Made by a program: the position numbers and the translations under genes
Shown: positions 19,474 to 25,598 of the stretch, piece after piece
How the letters are laid out: each line of letters opens with the position of its first letter
How positions within the stretch are numbered: position 1 is the stretch's first letter
Assembly (NCBI RefSeq): GCF_037811135.1
Contig: NZ_CP149130.1
Coordinates: 3,282,501-3,346,500 of the forward strand
Reading direction: 5' to 3'
From: Aeromonas rivipollensis
GTDB taxonomy: Bacteria; Pseudomonadota; Gammaproteobacteria; Enterobacterales; Aeromonadaceae
Length of the DNA: 64,000 bases
The notes under the pieces: generated by a model
Database searches by the model: none
Seen by the model: only the letters and a program-made list of their open reading frames with translations
What the model was told of the DNA's origin: nothing

Positions 19474-21113
19474 ATGCATCCTCACCCCACCCTCACTCTC
19501 GATCAGTGCGTTATCTACCAGATCTACCCCATGAGCTTTCAGGACAGCGACGGCGATGGCATGGGGGACATCAACGGCATCCGCCAGCGCCTGGACCACC
19601 TGGCGACCCTCGGAGTGGACCTGCTCTGGCTCACCCCCGTCTACCCTTCCCCCAGACGGGACAACGGCTACGACGTGGCGGATTACCGCGCCATCGACCC
19701 CGCCTTCGGCACCCTGGCCGAGATGGACTCGCTCATTGCCGAGGCGGGAGCGCGCGGCATGGGCATCATGATGGACATAGTCGCCAACCACACCTCCACC
19801 GAACATGCGTGGTTCAGGCAGGCGCTGGCCGGGGATCCCCGCTACCAGACCTATTACGTCTTTCGGGACCAGACCTTCGTCGATACCCACCCGCTGGACT
19901 CCATCTTCGGCGGCAGTGCCTGGGAATACGTGCCGGCGCTTGATCGCTACTACCTGCACAACTTCGATGCGAGCCAGGCCGATCTCGACTGGGACAATCC
20001 GGCGGTGCGGGCCGAGATGGCGGAGGTGATCAACTTCTGGCTGGCCAGGGGCATCAAGGGGTTTCGCTTCGATGTGATCGACATGGTGAGCAAGGAGTGG
20101 TCGCCCATTGCCATGAGCAACGGCCCCCGCCTGCACGACTATATCCGCGAGCTGAGTGGCGCCAGCTTCGGCGGCAAGGGGATCATCACTGTCGGTGAGA
20201 CCTGGGGGGCAGATCTGGCCCATATGCGGCGCTATTCGAACCCGGATGACAGCGAGTTCAGCATGGTGTTCACTTCGCCTTCAAGGACGCCATGGCCCGC
20301 CACCAGAGCGGGCTGCACGGCCAAGGCTGGAACAGCCTGTTTCTGGGTAACCACGACCTGCCCCGCGCCGTCTCCCGCTTCGGCGACGACAGCCCCGAGT
20401 GGCGCGAGCTGAGTGCCAAGCAGTGGGCCCTGGTGCTGCACATGATGCAGGGCACTCCCTTCATCTATCAGGGGGAGGAGCTTGGCATGACCAACCGCCG
20501 CTGGCAGCCAGAGGAGCTGCGCGATCTGGAGGCCATCAACTACAGCGCCAGCCAGCCGGGACTGGACCCCGCCGAGCTCGCCCGCCGCCTCGATGCCATT
20601 GGCCGCGACAACGCCCGCACGCCGATGCAGTGGGACTCGGGCCCCCGGGCCGGTTTCAGCACGGCAGAGCCCTGGATAGCGCTCAACGACAACTATATGG
20701 AGATCAACGCCGCCGAGCAGCTGGCCCGCCCCGACTCCCTGTTTCACTGCTATCGCCAGCTCATCGCCCTGCGCAAGGCCCACCCCGTCATTCGCCATGG
20801 CGACTTCGAGCTGCTGGATGAGGGCGATCCCCTGTGCATCAGCTACCGCCGCAGCTGGCGGGATCCGGCCACCGGCCAGACGCAAACTCTGCTGCTGCTC
20901 GCCAATCTCACCGCAGGCCTCTTGCCCATGCCCCATTTCGACAAGCTAGCCAGCGACGCCAGCTTGCTGATGGGCAACTACCCCGGCCAGCCAGGGCCCT
21001 GCTTTGCCCCCTACCAGACGGCGGTTTGGCTTCTTGTGGAGCCCGCCATGGCGCTCGCGCCAGGCACGCATAGAACCGACCGGAGTAGGCCAGTTCAGGG
21101 GCGAGCGGGTTGA
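19474..21113 (+). pseudogene. GH13 alpha-glucosidase (oligo-1,6-glucosidase/TreC-like), frameshifted
   Basis: The 5' frame (19474 to about 20271) encodes the N-terminal TIM-barrel half of a family-13 glucosidase: YQIYPMSFQDSDGDGMGD, MDIVANHTS, the nucleophile region GFRFDVIDM, and the acid/base VGETWG. The rest, with FLGNHDLPRAVSRFG (third carboxylate), GTPFIYQGEELGMTN and TPMQWDSG, is in another frame from about 20274. One missing base (a C would restore a codon for His) at 20271-20274 explains the break. Joined, it would be about 546 residues, normal for the family. It is either a recent pseudogene or a sequencing error. No clear ribosome site precedes 19474. Confidence 0.85.
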
Positions 21114-21169
21114 CTGTCCCCCGGAATCTGCGTATTTTGCGTCCAGATTTCATGTTGGACTGCTCTGCA

Positions 21170-21260
21170 ATGTTGTACATCCTGTTCAAATGTTCTGTCA
21201 GGAGGCTGTGCTCCGTGCACTAACACGATGAAGTGTTGCCCGGAGCCACATCTCTTCTGA
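21170..21260 (+). other. short upstream ORFs in the ABC-F operon leader
   Basis: Three short frames overlap in the leader. One at 21170-21223 encodes MLYILFKCSVRRLCSVH. One at 21190-21231 encodes MFCQEAVLRALTR. One at 21228-21260 encodes MKCCPEPHLF and overlaps the second by ATGA. A perfect AGGAGG (21200-21205) stands nine bases before a GTG-CAC-TAA minimal ORF. No single frame has both a clear ribosome site and a good start, so which is translated, if any, is unknown. Confidence 0.35.
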
Positions 21261-21365
21261 ATCTTCATCAGATAGCGCTTGCGCCCTCCATAGAGGGAGG
21301 CGACCCCGCATCTGATGAGAACAGGAGAAAGGCCGGCGAGATGCTTCATCGCCGGCCTTTTTGTT
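21227..21365 (+). promoter_or_regulatory. candidate attenuator of the ABC-F/MFS operon
   Basis: A strong intrinsic terminator (AAAGGCCGGCGA at 21328-21339 with TCGCCGGCCTTT at 21349-21360, then T-rich) stands 94 bases before the ABC-F start, with no intact gene upstream to end except the broken glucosidase. Before it, TCATCAGAT (21265-21273) pairs perfectly with ATCTGATGA (21310-21318) around an inner CCCTC/GAGGG hairpin. GATGAAG (21227-21233) can instead pair with CTTCATC at 21263-21269, or, as CGATGAAG, with CTTCATCG at 21344-21351 inside the terminator. Such exclusive pairings suggest attenuation. Confidence 0.5.
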
Positions 21366-21398
21366 TCTGATCTTCAGGACAAAGTTTCAATATTGCGT

Positions 21399-21436
21399 GA
21401 AACGGGGGCCGGTACGCCAAGTACCGCCCCCGTTTC
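21399..21436 (+). promoter_or_regulatory. 16-bp hairpin directly upstream of the ABC-F start
   Basis: GAAACGGGGG-C-CGGTAC pairs with GTACCG-CCCCCGTTTC around a GCCAA loop with one bulged base, ending 17 bases before the ABC-F ATG. It is followed by TTTATGG only, so it is a weak terminator, but it is long enough to affect ribosome loading or transcription. Confidence 0.6.
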
Positions 21437-21453
21437 TTTATGGATATAGCACC

Positions 21454-23013
21454 ATGAGTCTGCTCAGCATTCACCATCTGACCTGTCACCTCGGTGACAA
21501 GACACTGTACCAGGACGCCAGCTTCACCCTGCTTCCCCGCGAACATATCTGCATCACGGGCAGGAACGGCGTCGGCAAAAGCACCCTGCTCAAGCTGCTC
21601 CAGGGGGAGCGCCAGCCTGACGCCGGGGATATCCTCTGGCAGCCCGGTCTTGACCGGGGTTACCTCGACCAGCATGCCGAGCTGGACGGGCAACTGACGA
21701 TACGGGCATATCTGCAAACGGCCTTTGCCCCCCTCTATCGGGCCGAGGCGGAGATGATGACCATCTATGCCAGCCCGGCGCGCTGTGCCCAGCCCCATCA
21801 GCTGGCCCTGGCCGCCAGCCTCCAGACCACCTTGGAGAGCCAGTCGTTTTACCAGATAGAGAGCCGGATCGACGAGGTAGCCGCCGGCCTTGGCCTCACC
21901 CAGCTTGGCATGCAGACCCGGCTGGCCAATCTGAGCGGCGGCCAGCGCCACAAGGTGATGCTGGCCGGCTTGCTGCTGCGCTCGCCGGATCTGCTGCTGC
22001 TCGATGAGCCGACCAACTACCTGGACAGCACCCACGTGGCCTGGTTGGCAAGCTACCTGGACGGCTTCGCGGGCGCCTTCCTGGTGGTCTCCCACGACAG
22101 GGATTTCGTCAACCACATCGCCACCGGCATCTGCGATATCGATCGCCTGCAGCTTCGCAAATACCAGGGCAACCTCGACAAGGCCATGGCCCAGAAGGCC
22201 GCGAATGATGCCGCTCACGCCCGGCAATACCAGGCGCAGCAGAGGCAGATCGACAAGCTGGAGCTGTTCATCGCCAAGAACGGCGCCGGGGTCAACGCCA
22301 GCATCGCCAACGGCCGCAAGAAGCAGCTGGCGCGCATCGAGCGCCTGTCCAACCCGGAGCGGGACAAGGGGGTCTCCCTCGCGTTTCGCAGCGTCGGGGG
22401 CGGCGGCCAGCAGGTGCTCGCCGCCTCTGAACTGGTCATCGGCCATGATCGCGCGCTGCTGGCGCCCCTGACCCTGACCCTGAGCCGGGGGGAGAAGGTG
22501 GTGATCGCCGGTTTCAACGGCGTCGGCAAGTCCACCCTGCTCAAGACACTGGCGGGCGATCTGGCCCCCCTGCGCGGTCGGCTCAGCCTCTCCCCCGGGG
22601 TCAAGGCGGGCTACTTCGAACAGGCGCTGCACTGGCCCCATCCGGATGCCACCCCACTGGCCCTGGTGAAAGCCGCCTGCCCCGCCCTCGATGACAAGGG
22701 CGCCAGGCTGCATCTGGCCCGGGTCGGCATCAGGGGCAAGCTGGCACTGCAACCGATCGCCGCCCTGAGTGGCGGGGAGCAGACCAAGGTGAAGCTGTGC
22801 CGACTGGCCCTGCAACCCAGCAACCTGCTGATCCTGGACGAGCCGACCACCCATCTGGATGCCGCCGTCAAGGCGGCCCTGCAACAGGCGTTGCAGGACT
22901 ATGCCGGGACTGTGGTGGTGGTCTGCCACGAGCAGGCCTTCGTGGCAGACTGGCCGGATCGGGTGCTGGACATTCACTCCCTCGCGGCCACCGGCTCGGT
23001 ATCACATCCTTAA
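21454..23013 (+). CDS. ABC-F family ATP-binding protein
   Basis: A 519-residue soluble protein with two ABC ATPase domains and no membrane segments, the ABC-F layout. Domain 1 has GRNGVGKST, LSGGQRHKV and LLLLDEPTN; domain 2 has GFNGVGKST, LSGGEQTKV and LLILDEPTT. A charged linker, roughly residues 225-320, joins them. ABC-F proteins act on the ribosome, either as translation factors or as antibiotic-protection factors, and sequence alone does not say which. The start MSLLSIHHL is chosen at 21454; a longer in-frame ATG reads through the hairpins. It is followed 10 bases later by an MFS exporter, and the pairing with a drug-type exporter and an attenuator-like leader favours a resistance role (inference). 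Confidence 0.9.
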   Translation: MSLLSIHHLTCHLGDKTLYQDASFTLLPREHICITGRNGVGKSTLLKLLQGERQPDAGDILWQPGLDRGYLDQHAELDGQLTIRAYLQTAFAPLYRAEAEMMTIYASPARCAQPHQLALAASLQTTLESQSFYQIESRIDEVAAGLGLTQLGMQTRLANLSGGQRHKVMLAGLLLRSPDLLLLDEPTNYLDSTHVAWLASYLDGFAGAFLVVSHDRDFVNHIATGICDIDRLQLRKYQGNLDKAMAQKAANDAAHARQYQAQQRQIDKLELFIAKNGAGVNASIANGRKKQLARIERLSNPERDKGVSLAFRSVGGGGQQVLAASELVIGHDRALLAPLTLTLSRGEKVVIAGFNGVGKSTLLKTLAGDLAPLRGRLSLSPGVKAGYFEQALHWPHPDATPLALVKAACPALDDKGARLHLARVGIRGKLALQPIAALSGGEQTKVKLCRLALQPSNLLILDEPTTHLDAAVKAALQQALQDYAGTVVVVCHEQAFVADWPDRVLDIHSLAATGSVSHP

Positions 23014-23023
23014 GGTGAACATC

Positions 23024-24163
23024 ATGTTATTGAAAGTATTGCTCTTTTTAATTGCATTTCTGGTAGGTGCCGATGAGCTGATGCTGGGCCCCCTGCTGAC
23101 CCCCATAGGCCGGGAGCTGGGGGTGCAGCCCGAGCGGGTCACGCTGTTTATCACCGCCTACAGCCTGGCGCTGGCGCTGATCGCCCCCCTGCTCGGCAGC
23201 CTCTCGGATCGCCTCGGCAGGGTGAGGATCATGCTGCCCGCCGCCTTGCTGTTCGGGGCCGCCTCCATCGCTACCGGCCTGGTCGATAGCTTCGAGTGGG
23301 GGCTGGCAAGCCGGGTGCTCACCGGTCTCGCCAGTGCCGGCATGCTGCCCATCGCCTTTGCCCTGGCGGCAGACGGCACGGGGAAAGATGCCATGAAGCG
23401 CATTGCCTGGGTGCAGTCCGGCCTGACGCTGGGCATGATAGCGAGCCCGGCCCTGGGGGCGCTGCTCGCTCAGTGGCACTCCTGGCGCGCCGCCTTTATC
23501 CTCCTCGGCCTCTGTGCCTGGGGGGTGGCGGCGGCCCTGGCCCTGCTGCCCGCCGGCAGTCCTTCGGCAGACAGATCGGCGGCGCAGCAGGAGGAGAAGG
23601 GCGTCCGTCTGCTGGCCATACCGGGTGCGGTCGGCGCCCTGCTGGCCATGTGCCTGGGCCTGGGCGGCGGCATTGGCCTCTTCAACCTGGTCGGCCAGCA
23701 CCTGCGCGACACCCAGGACCTGTCGATGGGGTCTGTGGGGCTCCTCTATGGGGCCCTCGGCATCATCAGCGTCATCGGCAACCTGCTGATGCCCCGCTTG
23801 TCTGGCCGGGTCGAGAGCGGGCGCGTCCTGATGCGCCTGGCCCTGGTGGTCTGCGTGCCTGCCAGCGTCGGCTTCTATCTCTCTCCCGCCTCACTGCCTG
23901 CCCTGCTGCTGCCGCTCGGGCTGTGGGCGCTGGCGGGCGGCATAGGATCCCCCGCCCTGCAGGGCCACATTGCCGGGCTCTCGTCAGCCCACAGGGGCAT
24001 GCTGATGTCGCTGGCGATGACCATGATGCACCTCGGGGTGGCGCTCTGGTCCGCCGTCGCCGGGTTTGCCTACAGTGCGGGGCCTGTGGCCCTGGCGCTG
24101 CTGGCCATGGCGCTCTTTGGCGGGGCTATTGCCGCCCTGCGCCCCATCCGCCTCGGGGCCTGA
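23024..24163 (+). CDS. MFS transporter (DHA1-type drug exporter family)
   Basis: A 379-residue membrane protein with about 12 hydrophobic segments. It carries the MFS motif A region GSLSDRLGRVRIM near residue 55 and begins MLLKVLLFLIAFLVGADELM. It probably exports small molecules by proton antiport; the substrate is unknown. AAGGTGA overlapping the ABC-F stop serves as ribosome site, so it is almost certainly co-transcribed with the ABC-F gene. A terminator follows. Confidence 0.85.
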   Translation: MLLKVLLFLIAFLVGADELMLGPLLTPIGRELGVQPERVTLFITAYSLALALIAPLLGSLSDRLGRVRIMLPAALLFGAASIATGLVDSFEWGLASRVLTGLASAGMLPIAFALAADGTGKDAMKRIAWVQSGLTLGMIASPALGALLAQWHSWRAAFILLGLCAWGVAAALALLPAGSPSADRSAAQQEEKGVRLLAIPGAVGALLAMCLGLGGGIGLFNLVGQHLRDTQDLSMGSVGLLYGALGIISVIGNLLMPRLSGRVESGRVLMRLALVVCVPASVGFYLSPASLPALLLPLGLWALAGGIGSPALQGHIAGLSSAHRGMLMSLAMTMMHLGVALWSAVAGFAYSAGPVALALLAMALFGGAIAALRPIRLGA

Positions 24164-24233: not shown

Positions 24234-25598
24234 TCAGGCCGGGATGCTGGCCAGCTCGTGGCGCTTCAACGCCAGCAGCGTGACCAGCAGGGCGGCGCTG
24301 GCGATCAGCGCCATGCCCACATAGGTGGCGCTGAAACCCGGGGCCAGCTCGGCGGGGCTCAGGCTGGCCAGGTTGTGGCTGGTCCCGGCCGGCAGGGCCC
24401 CGTGGAACAGCACGGCGCAGATAGCCACCCCGACCGCGCCCCCCAGCTCACGGCCGAAGTTGAACAGGGACATGCCGATGCCGCGATCTTCCCGCGGCAA
24501 GGCGTTTTGCACCACCACCGAGAGCGCCGGCAGCACCAGCCCGAGCCCCAGACCGGCGAAGCCCAGCCCCAGATTGGCAAAGAGATCGACGTGAATCTGC
24601 CACAGAGCCAGCGCCGCCAGGGCAAAGCCCGCCACCACAAAGCGCTTGTAGTAACCGGTGCGACCTATGAGCTTGCCGCCGACGAAGGCCCCCGCCGTGA
24701 TGCAGACCATGAAGATCACCATGTAGAGGCCGCTCTCGCTGGCCCCCATCCCCTTCTGCCACTGCATCTGAAGGGGCAGGTAGACCAGCACGGCAAACAT
24801 CAGCAGTTGCGAGGCCAGCGCCAGCAGCACGCTCACCAGATAACCGGGCAAGCGGGCCAGATGGGCGGGCAGTATGGGATCCTGGGCGCGTCGCTCCACC
24901 AGGATGAGCAGCAGCAGGGACAGGGCCAGCCCCGCCGCCAGCCAGATGGCGGACAGCGTGGTTTCCGGCGAGAGCAGTAGCAGGGAGAGGGTAGTGACAG
25001 TGATGAGCAGCCCCGCCCCCTGCCAGTCGAAGCGGCTGCGGCGGCGCAGGTTGAGGTGACCCAGGTTGCGGTTCACCAGCCAGAGCGCCAGGGCACCGAG
25101 GGGCAGGTTGATCCAGAAGATCCAGCGCCAGCTCAGCTGTTCGGTGAAGTAGCCGCCGAGCAGGGGCCCGGCGATGCTGGAGACCGCATAGACGGCCGAG
25201 ATATACCCCTGATACTTGCCCACCTCGCGCGGGGGAATACAGTCGGCGATAACGGTGAAGGCCAGCGCGATCAGGCCGCCGCCCCCCAGCCCTTGCAGCA
25301 CGCGGGCTGCCAGCAGGGTCGGCAGATCCTGGGCCAGGGCGCAGGCCACCGACCCCGCCAGAAACAGGCCTATGCCGATGTTGAGCATCCGCACCCGGCC
25401 GAACATGTCGCTCAGCTTGCCGTAGATGGGCAGGGCCGCGGTGGCCGCCAGCAGGTAGGCGGTGACCACCCAGGTGAGGGCGGCGCCGGCGTTCAGCTCG
25501 GCGCCTATGATGGGCAAGGGGGTGGTGACTATGCTCTTCTCCAGTGAGCCCAGGGCGATCACCAGAGCCACGCTTGAGAAGACGGTTTTTGGGGACAT
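24234..25598 (-). CDS. MFS transporter, DHA2 (EmrB/QacA-like) family
   Basis: A 454-residue inner-membrane protein with about 14 hydrophobic segments. It has the DHA2 signatures IVTTPLPIIGAELNA near residue 23 and GKLSDMFGRVRML (motif A) near residue 60. GLGGGGLIALAFTVIAD, the motif C-like GPLLGGYFTEQLSWRWIFWINLP, and GRELGGAVGVAICAVLF follow. It is likely a proton-driven multidrug exporter; the substrate is unknown. It is convergent with the ABC-F/MFS operon. No local regulator gene is adjacent. Confidence 0.88.
   Translation of the reverse strand: MSPKTVFSSVALVIALGSLEKSIVTTPLPIIGAELNAGAALTWVVTAYLLAATAALPIYGKLSDMFGRVRMLNIGIGLFLAGSVACALAQDLPTLLAARVLQGLGGGGLIALAFTVIADCIPPREVGKYQGYISAVYAVSSIAGPLLGGYFTEQLSWRWIFWINLPLGALALWLVNRNLGHLNLRRRSRFDWQGAGLLITVTTLSLLLLSPETTLSAIWLAAGLALSLLLLILVERRAQDPILPAHLARLPGYLVSVLLALASQLLMFAVLVYLPLQMQWQKGMGASESGLYMVIFMVCITAGAFVGGKLIGRTGYYKRFVVAGFALAALALWQIHVDLFANLGLGFAGLGLGLVLPALSVVVQNALPREDRGIGMSLFNFGRELGGAVGVAICAVLFHGALPAGTSHNLASLSPAELAPGFSATYVGMALIASAALLVTLLALKRHELASIPA

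Follow-up and report, generated by a model that had tools for sequence, protein, structure and literature searches.

The leader (21110-21453) of a two-gene operon in Aeromonas rivipollensis, encoding an ABC-F protein (21454-23013) and an MFS protein (23024-24163), is best explained as a ribosome-mediated transcription attenuator resembling that of vmlR, with a long conserved peptide as its sensor; we put the probability of this reading at about two in three. It is favored because its parts stand in a vmlR-like order, i.e. a uORF within a candidate anti-antiterminator, followed by a candidate antiterminator and a terminator. Comparison of homologous leaders supports translation of the uORF, the reality of a hairpin assigned to uup RNA, and a complementarity of the alternative pairing partners beyond that expected by chance. 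Coordinates (Table 1) are those of the window, i.e. the whole stretch of 64,000 nucleotides that was analyzed.

Table 1. Features of the leader and operon, in window coordinates.
Feature	Positions	Strand	Basis or detail
Sigma-70-like promoter, TTGACT-17-TATTTT	21110-21138	+	promoter-like site by pattern scan
Leader peptide ORF MLYILFKCSVRRLCSVH followed by a stop codon, proposed sensor uORF	21170-21223	+	coding signature, conserved frame
uup RNA, RF03060	21201-21246	+	arm 1 21210-21219, loop 21220-21236, arm 2 21237-21246
Element a, GATGAAG, in the uup loop	21227-21233	+	complementary to a' and to terminator 1
Element a', CTTCATC, candidate pseudoknot partner of the uup loop	21263-21269	+	loop:a' helix comparison
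Element a'', ATCTGATGA	21310-21318	+	pairs with 21265-21273 (overlapping a'), competing with the uup loop
Intrinsic terminator T1	21328-21361	+	core 21331-21357; hairpin then T tract; apex complementary to uup loop and arm 2
Second terminator-like hairpin T2, then TTT, just 5' of the ABC-F start	21399-21436	+	folding, by eye
ABC-F gene, ribosome-protection-like kind, 519 aa	21454-23013	+	NF000355 359.6 bits, below cut-off 380; Pfam
MFS efflux-type gene, 10 bp 3' of the ABC-F gene	23024-24163	+	Pfam MFS_1 150 bits

The uup RNA and the genes behind it

The original source of uup RNA is probably Weinberg 2017. Its Rfam family (RF03060) was the sole one matched above threshold in the leader, with 54.7 bits against the Rfam cut-off of 36.8 and with all of model positions 1-48 covered; weaker matches to other Rfam families in the window (mir-650, Thr_leader and ar35) fell short of the curated scores and were discarded. 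The hairpin lies 207 nt from the start of the ABC-F gene (21454), which fits the position described for the motif. The relevant passages of one review, on C. difficile riboswitches, place uup in Bacillota and Gammaproteobacteria, upstream of an ABC-type ATPase gene, and group it with motifs similar to riboswitches (PMC11477304). No published mechanism for uup was found in the open-licence literature. An earlier note on this DNA had supposed that attenuation of this kind would be new in a gammaproteobacterium, which is not quite so: RF03060 is already in Rfam, its occurrence in Gammaproteobacteria stands in the review passage cited above (PMC11477304), and the published passages on E. coli toiL offer a precedent (PMC12121999). 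What would be new is a mechanism for an orphan motif, and not a principle.

Searches with RF03060, whose genome samples overlap one another, matched 19 of 37 genomes of the window's genus (18 above the cut-off), 18 of 150 in one family of its order, 12 of 247 in the order, and 2 of 369 sampled in the class, where the one match above the cut-off was the window's own genome. Beyond this lineage, the class to which a genome titled Ruminiclostridium belongs gave 10 matches in 291 genomes (9 above the cut-off), the family of one of these gave 2 in 13, and the class that includes a genome titled Cohnella gave 6 in 250. One of six individually chosen genomes also matched, below the cut-off, and none of the 14 control genomes did so in any search. 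Of 27 records that matched ABC-F, eight were retrieved, and in three of these, from Photobacterium sp. GJ3, Vibrio nigripulchritudo and Salinivibrio proteolyticus, uup precedes an ABC-F gene; loci resembling these three are here called Vibrionaceae-type. In the other five, Firmicutes ABC-F relatives from plasmid-collection records, uup was absent within 1.2 kb, and a loose exact-pattern scan of contigs gave no convincing uup hairpin, as judged by eye, in the 80 stretches listed of 120. Two further candidates, L150 (29.9 bits) and L154 (32.1 bits), were under the cut-off and unconvincing by eye, and were set aside.

The 54 loci collected were reduced to 52 by removing a decayed locus (L020) and a short, partly masked twin of L158 (L157), and then to 26 clusters, which span Aeromonas-type and Vibrionaceae-type gammaproteobacteria, Clostridia and Bacilli. 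Based on ORFs inspected by eye, the next gene was ABC-F-like in 16 clusters (9 gammaproteobacterial, 2 from Clostridia, 5 from Bacilli), MATE in three, MFS in one (L180) and SAM-methyltransferase-like in six. When five representatives of these target genes were run through NCBIfam, two MATE proteins scored above the cut-off, and two ABC-F pieces and the methyltransferase scored below. The methyltransferase-like gene (MSQNIYD...DLGCGYGW) stands behind a second type of uup leader (L019, L021-L029 and L153). L180 is a second uup copy within one genome, with an insertion of about 160-170 nt between the hairpin and a'; by eye, an MFS-like gene resembling that of the window lies directly behind this leader, with no ABC-F gene between them.

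The promoter-like site in Table 1 was the only one detected by pattern scan on either strand of 20600-22000 (0.3 expected from shuffles), and when 22 upstream stretches were inspected by eye, many showed similar TTGAC and TAnnnT hexamers at about that distance 5' of the uORF, some being unclear. The ABC-F protein contains ABC_tran in two stretches and ABC_tran_Xtn at residues 227-305 (Pfam), i.e. the two ABC domains with an interdomain linker expected of antibiotic-resistance ABC-F (ARE) proteins. It reached no curated cut-off of a named resistance family among the NCBIfam matches listed (NF000355 included; Table 1), and named resistance families among the matches listed scored far under their cut-offs; its relatives of solved structure were, best first, YheS, Uup, EttA and YbiT, followed by ExpZ-named chains and PoxtA. 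The NCBIfam family nearest to the MFS protein was Cmx/CmrA (83.9 vs. a cut-off of 400). Another MFS gene (24234-25598), best matched by OtrB, Tcr3 and EmrB, all under cut-off, is convergent to the operon. Upstream, a gene for an alpha-glucosidase similar to trehalose-6-phosphate hydrolase (19474-21113) is divided between two reading frames (19474-20412 and 20292-21113), and since a single frame is open across the first 1500 bases of this locus in a relative of the same species (L002), the copy in the window looks frameshifted or carries a sequencing error.

A conserved leader peptide that runs into the hairpin

The uORF that uup overlaps in all 26 clusters encodes a conserved peptide, whose consensus is roughly M.YI...K..VR[RK][LV].S[VA][QH], and in the window the last codons of this uORF form arm 1 of the hairpin. 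Among type A leaders (24 loci, 20 distinct sequences), the synonymous fraction of pairwise codon differences was 0.53 in this frame vs. 0.07 and 0.14 in the other two, a value reached in none of 500 column permutations; the methyltransferase type gave 48% vs. 7% and 29%, a value that 6 of 500 permutations attained. An ATG-started ORF beginning at -40 to -20 and open to arm 1 was present in this frame in 24 of the 26 clusters (2 and 0 in the other frames), and when GTG starts were allowed, an ORF with the recognizable common peptide ran into or through the hairpin in all 26. The start lay 14 codons 5' of a conserved Ser codon in 21 clusters, as chosen by a script which, where several starts were possible, favored ATG and then the start closest to that spacing. 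No Shine-Dalgarno sequence was seen on inspection before the uORF of the window. Past Ser-x-Gln/His the ORF stops in the window and continues elsewhere in frames that depend on the group, and the uup loop and arm 2 mostly retain their letters where these frames diverge, suggesting that the front of the uORF is conserved as a peptide and its back as RNA. In the methyltransferase type, the leader peptide of L022 (MTLYASDQRVTRVNSVQMRTMKRCPEPVEA, followed by a stop codon) spans the entire uup hairpin, and by eye several loci place the stop codon within the loop of a further hairpin, whose stem shows compensating changes (GAGGC..GCCTC, AAAGC..GCTTT).

These results uphold, on comparative grounds, part of the attenuator reading of the earlier note, namely a promoter-like site upstream of 21170, a coding uORF, predicted mutually exclusive pairings and a terminator before the ABC-F/MFS operon, and they change the uORF concerned. 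The overlapping ORFs that the note had named, at 21190-21231 and 21228-21260, do exist but show no conservation as a pair: of 27 type A loci, only 8 share the ATG at 21190, and 3 have GTG in place of the ATG at 21228. By its coding signature, the real uORF is that at 21170-21223.

An attenuator responding to slow decoding of rare Arg codons, to low charged Arg-tRNA or to general translation stress, rather than to drug-dependent arrest by the nascent peptide, is the best-surviving of the alternatives, if an unlikely one. It is consistent with the two adjacent Arg codons (21200-21205 in the window): every one of the 24 type A loci listed uses AGA, AGG or CGA at both, compared with a share of 12% for these three codons among the Arg codons in ten long ORFs of the window. 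It is also consistent with the use of CGA at both conserved Arg sites in 8 of the 10 methyltransferase-type loci listed. Against it, conservation of the peptide reaches past Arg (YI, K, VRR[LV] and Ser), the Firmicutes leaders mostly retain a single Arg or Lys at this site among differing neighbors (L163 has neither), and the target genes are of resistance type instead of belonging to arginine metabolism.

Alternative pairings and two terminator-like hairpins in series

A 311-nt segment of the leader folded at -146.7 kcal/mol (z = -8.7; none of 100 shuffles was as stable). Each pairing element named in the earlier note was found on reading the sequence where it had been placed: GATGAAG, CTTCATC, CTTCATCG (21344-21351, a candidate GATGAAG partner in T1), TCATCAGAT (overlapping a', at 21265-21273) and ATCTGATGA. 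The strong terminator proposed for 21328-21365 corresponds to a hairpin at 21328-21361 that runs into a T tract. The pattern scanner flagged neither terminator, T1 being recognized by folding and T2 by folding and by eye.

Across 26 sequences, 91% of the cells of the uup stem were paired, and 5 of its 10 pairs showed double changes. The helix between the uup loop and a' was the best one, 7-31 nt after uup, in 23 of the 26 clusters (the exceptions being L024, L174 and L180); 77% of its cells were paired and 4 of its 11 pairs carried double changes. The number of double-changed cells in this helix was 19 vs. 8.8 in shuffles (0 of 500 shuffles reached 19), and the number of double-changed pairs was not above that of shuffles (325 of 500 reached 4). 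When compared with dinucleotide-shuffled downstream DNA, loop:a' complementarity gave a combined Fisher p of 2e-9 over the 26 clusters, with single-cluster p values from 0.002 to 0.99; relatedness among the sequences inflates this and the other combined p values. GATGAAG:CTTCATC was nearly invariant among 17 gammaproteobacterial leaders, the double changes arising between groups. The check on stem covariation that had been proposed came out positive for two stems: in 17 type A leaders, both the TCATCAGAT/ATCTGATGA stem (GC:8/AU:8, columns 75-122) and the T1 stem (CG:9/UA:8, columns 158-172) covary, in a fold from which L175 and L180 were excluded and whose rows are not one per cluster. The alignment (A1) consisted of 25 clusters and the window row, L180 being left out for its insertion.

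A small-ligand riboswitch, in which the hairpin would bind a metabolite or drug directly and the uORF would be incidental, is improbable. The motif is catalogued as a cis-regulatory structured RNA, the letters of its loop and arms are strongly conserved, and the passage in the C. difficile review sets it beside riboswitch-like motifs; but an ORF with a recognizable common peptide meets the hairpin in every cluster (in 24 of 26 with ATG starts only), and the conservation of the loop is otherwise explained by its complementarity to a' and T1.

Evidence for the latter pairing came from hairpin-preserving permutations. The uup:T1 duplex was predicted at -23.0 kcal/mol vs. -20.2 kcal/mol for T1 itself (calculated for L011, whose T1 and uup letters used equal those of the window). 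Among 20 leaders of ABC-F, MFS and MATE genes, the uup loop and arm 2 were complementary to T1 at p <= 0.05 in 18 (combined Fisher 6e-18, a value inflated by related sequences), and the duplex was either more stable than T1 itself or less so by no more than about 4 kcal/mol. In methyltransferase-type leaders, clear complementarity was missing (0 of 7 at p <= 0.05; Fisher 0.047). These 27 leaders comprised 25 clusters (L027 excluded) and, from the L022 cluster, the additional loci L025 and L028. Exchange of T1 among 28 loci was significant overall (14 of 2000), and exchange within groups was not (type A 1462, methyltransferase 1212, Clostridia 252 and Bacilli 617 of 2000). The T1 strings were chosen by eye from the sequence, the terminator finder having missed or misplaced several of these hairpins. 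Of 22 leaders scored, 11 showed complementarity between the 3' arm of T1 and the 5' arm of T2 at p <= 0.05 (combined Fisher 5e-12, related rows included); the T2 strings were finder output here, the one returned for L163 lying probably inside the gene, and manual copies in the folds through T2 described below, and L011 and L016 were scored in place of the window, whose T2 the finder missed.

The effect of a ribosome was modeled by masking a footprint that extends 12 nt upstream and 14 nt downstream of the P-site codon's first base. The probability of the uup hairpin in the window fell from 0.85 to 0.71 with the ribosome at codon 10, to 0.14 at the first Arg codon (21200, codon 11) and to 0.00 from the second Arg codon (codon 12) onward. 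At equilibrium T1 of the window was closed throughout, whether the ribosome was absent or placed at any of the 18 codons. In a set of 24 leaders that includes several members of one cluster, masking of arm 1 alone caused T1 to yield to the alternative pairing in 5, vs. 0 of 24 when only upstream sequence was masked; T1 remained closed in the other 19, including the window (P 0.98 and 1.00 in two calculations). Of 480 trials with permuted T1s, 20 led to opening, and 18 of these came from L163 (10 of 20) and L166 (8 of 20), so these two leaders count for little. When folding was extended through T2, the terminated state was more stable by 4.8 to 22.5 kcal/mol in all 16 leaders, and in 6 of 16 the best terminator-free structure was without uup:T1 pairing. 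A simple switch by equilibrium folding therefore does not hold for the window, and since equilibrium favors termination, the proposed antitermination would have to be kinetic and co-transcriptional.

The same closed terminators are compatible with a regulation that is mainly translational or Rho-dependent, in which T1 and T2 would be partly passed by default, and for which the toiL-topAI passages offer a precedent within the gammaproteobacteria (PMC12121999). Two strong terminator-like hairpins in series, the stem of the first covarying, speak against this account, which is still less probable than a riboswitch. That the leader is a constitutive insulator (promoter and double terminator) or a decayed regulator, with inherited and non-functional conservation, is scarcely credible in view of the covariation of several helices, the coding signature and the spread over two phyla, even if such leaders can survive as remnants, as L020 indicates. 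This decayed copy, carried by one genome of the genus, has lost conserved residues of the peptide, its T1 is broken, and no intact ABC-F gene lies behind it.

Proposed mechanism, known systems and meaning

Under the ribosome-mediated attenuation that we favor, RNA polymerase would start near 21145, as judged from the promoter-like site, and the 17-codon leader peptide would be translated, its conserved Arg-Arg-Leu region being read as the ribosome reaches arm 1. With normal or absent translation, arm 1 and arm 2 would form the uup hairpin, accompanied by the loop:a' pseudoknot or the a':a'' stem, T1 and T2 would then form and the operon would be off. A ribosome stalled on the peptide, most likely by a ribosome-targeting drug, would cover arm 1, so that the uup loop and arm 2 could instead base-pair with the T1 apex; if this pairing outcompetes the terminator during transcription, the freed 3' arm of T1 could in turn pair with the 5' arm of T2, and transcription would enter the ABC-F and MFS genes.

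The window is a member of RF03060, the Rfam model of which is limited to the 48-nt hairpin; the overlap with a leader peptide and the complementarity to a' and to the terminator are added here. The closest regulatory logic, in the passages compared, is that of B. subtilis vmlR, where a ribosome on the uORF blocks the anti-antiterminator, the antiterminator forms and the ABCF gene is read (PMC9226507). The likeness is in the order of parts: the vmlR uORF has three residues (MIN) and those of uup leaders about 17 to 46 codons, the hairpin is a different one, and the genes behind uup are of several kinds. The msrD/MsrDL and mefA/MefAL systems, as far as described in the passages compared, share an operon of ABC-F and MefA efflux genes, stalling on a leader peptide and an intrinsic terminator; MsrDL (MYLIFM) stalls at its stop codon, the stalled ribosome itself obstructing the terminator, and the MLYILF start of the window's peptide is only loosely similar (PMC10314930). 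Leaders of C. difficile cplR and other ARE-ABCF genes likewise combine a conserved short uORF and a terminator, with transcription and translation attenuation operating together in cplR, and none of the uORFs given there (MR[I/M], MIN, MK[L/Q] and MAGN) resembles the uup leader peptide (PMC10201436). E. coli toiL-topAI has an antibiotic-sensing uORF in a gammaproteobacterium and differs, according to its published passages, in the proposed masking of a ribosome-binding site, in premature Rho-dependent termination and in its target (PMC12121999). In the passage on uORFC-6-1, before the ribosome-rescue gene hflX, a structured RNA candidate likewise goes with a conserved Arg-containing leader peptide, with an Arg-Leu-Arg motif, another gene and another RNA (PMC8632094). 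Judged against these literature passages, the uup leader peptide may be an arrest-type peptide of a kind that they do not describe.

We tentatively propose, at somewhat less than even odds, that uup is a portable drug-sensing module present in two phyla, in which one conserved arrest-type peptide would be coupled to a strand that swaps between hairpin, pseudoknot and terminator apex and to a T1-T2 relay, the same module standing before at least three to four unrelated resistance-type genes (ABC-F, MFS, MATE and methyltransferase). Should this be so, all target genes would answer one translation inhibitor or one kind thereof. Relative to vmlR as described in the passages compared, such a module would be distinguished by its long conserved peptide, a catalogued hairpin found across two phyla and several kinds of target.

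The reading offers a testable mechanism for uup, an Rfam family for which none was found in the open-licence literature, and a sequence-based prediction of which genes, in which bacteria, may respond to a ribosome-targeting compound. Identification of the inducer for one leader peptide could point to a substrate common to these ABC-F, MATE, MFS and methyltransferase genes, which are otherwise unassigned, and a new class of drug-dependent ribosome arrest might thereby be defined.
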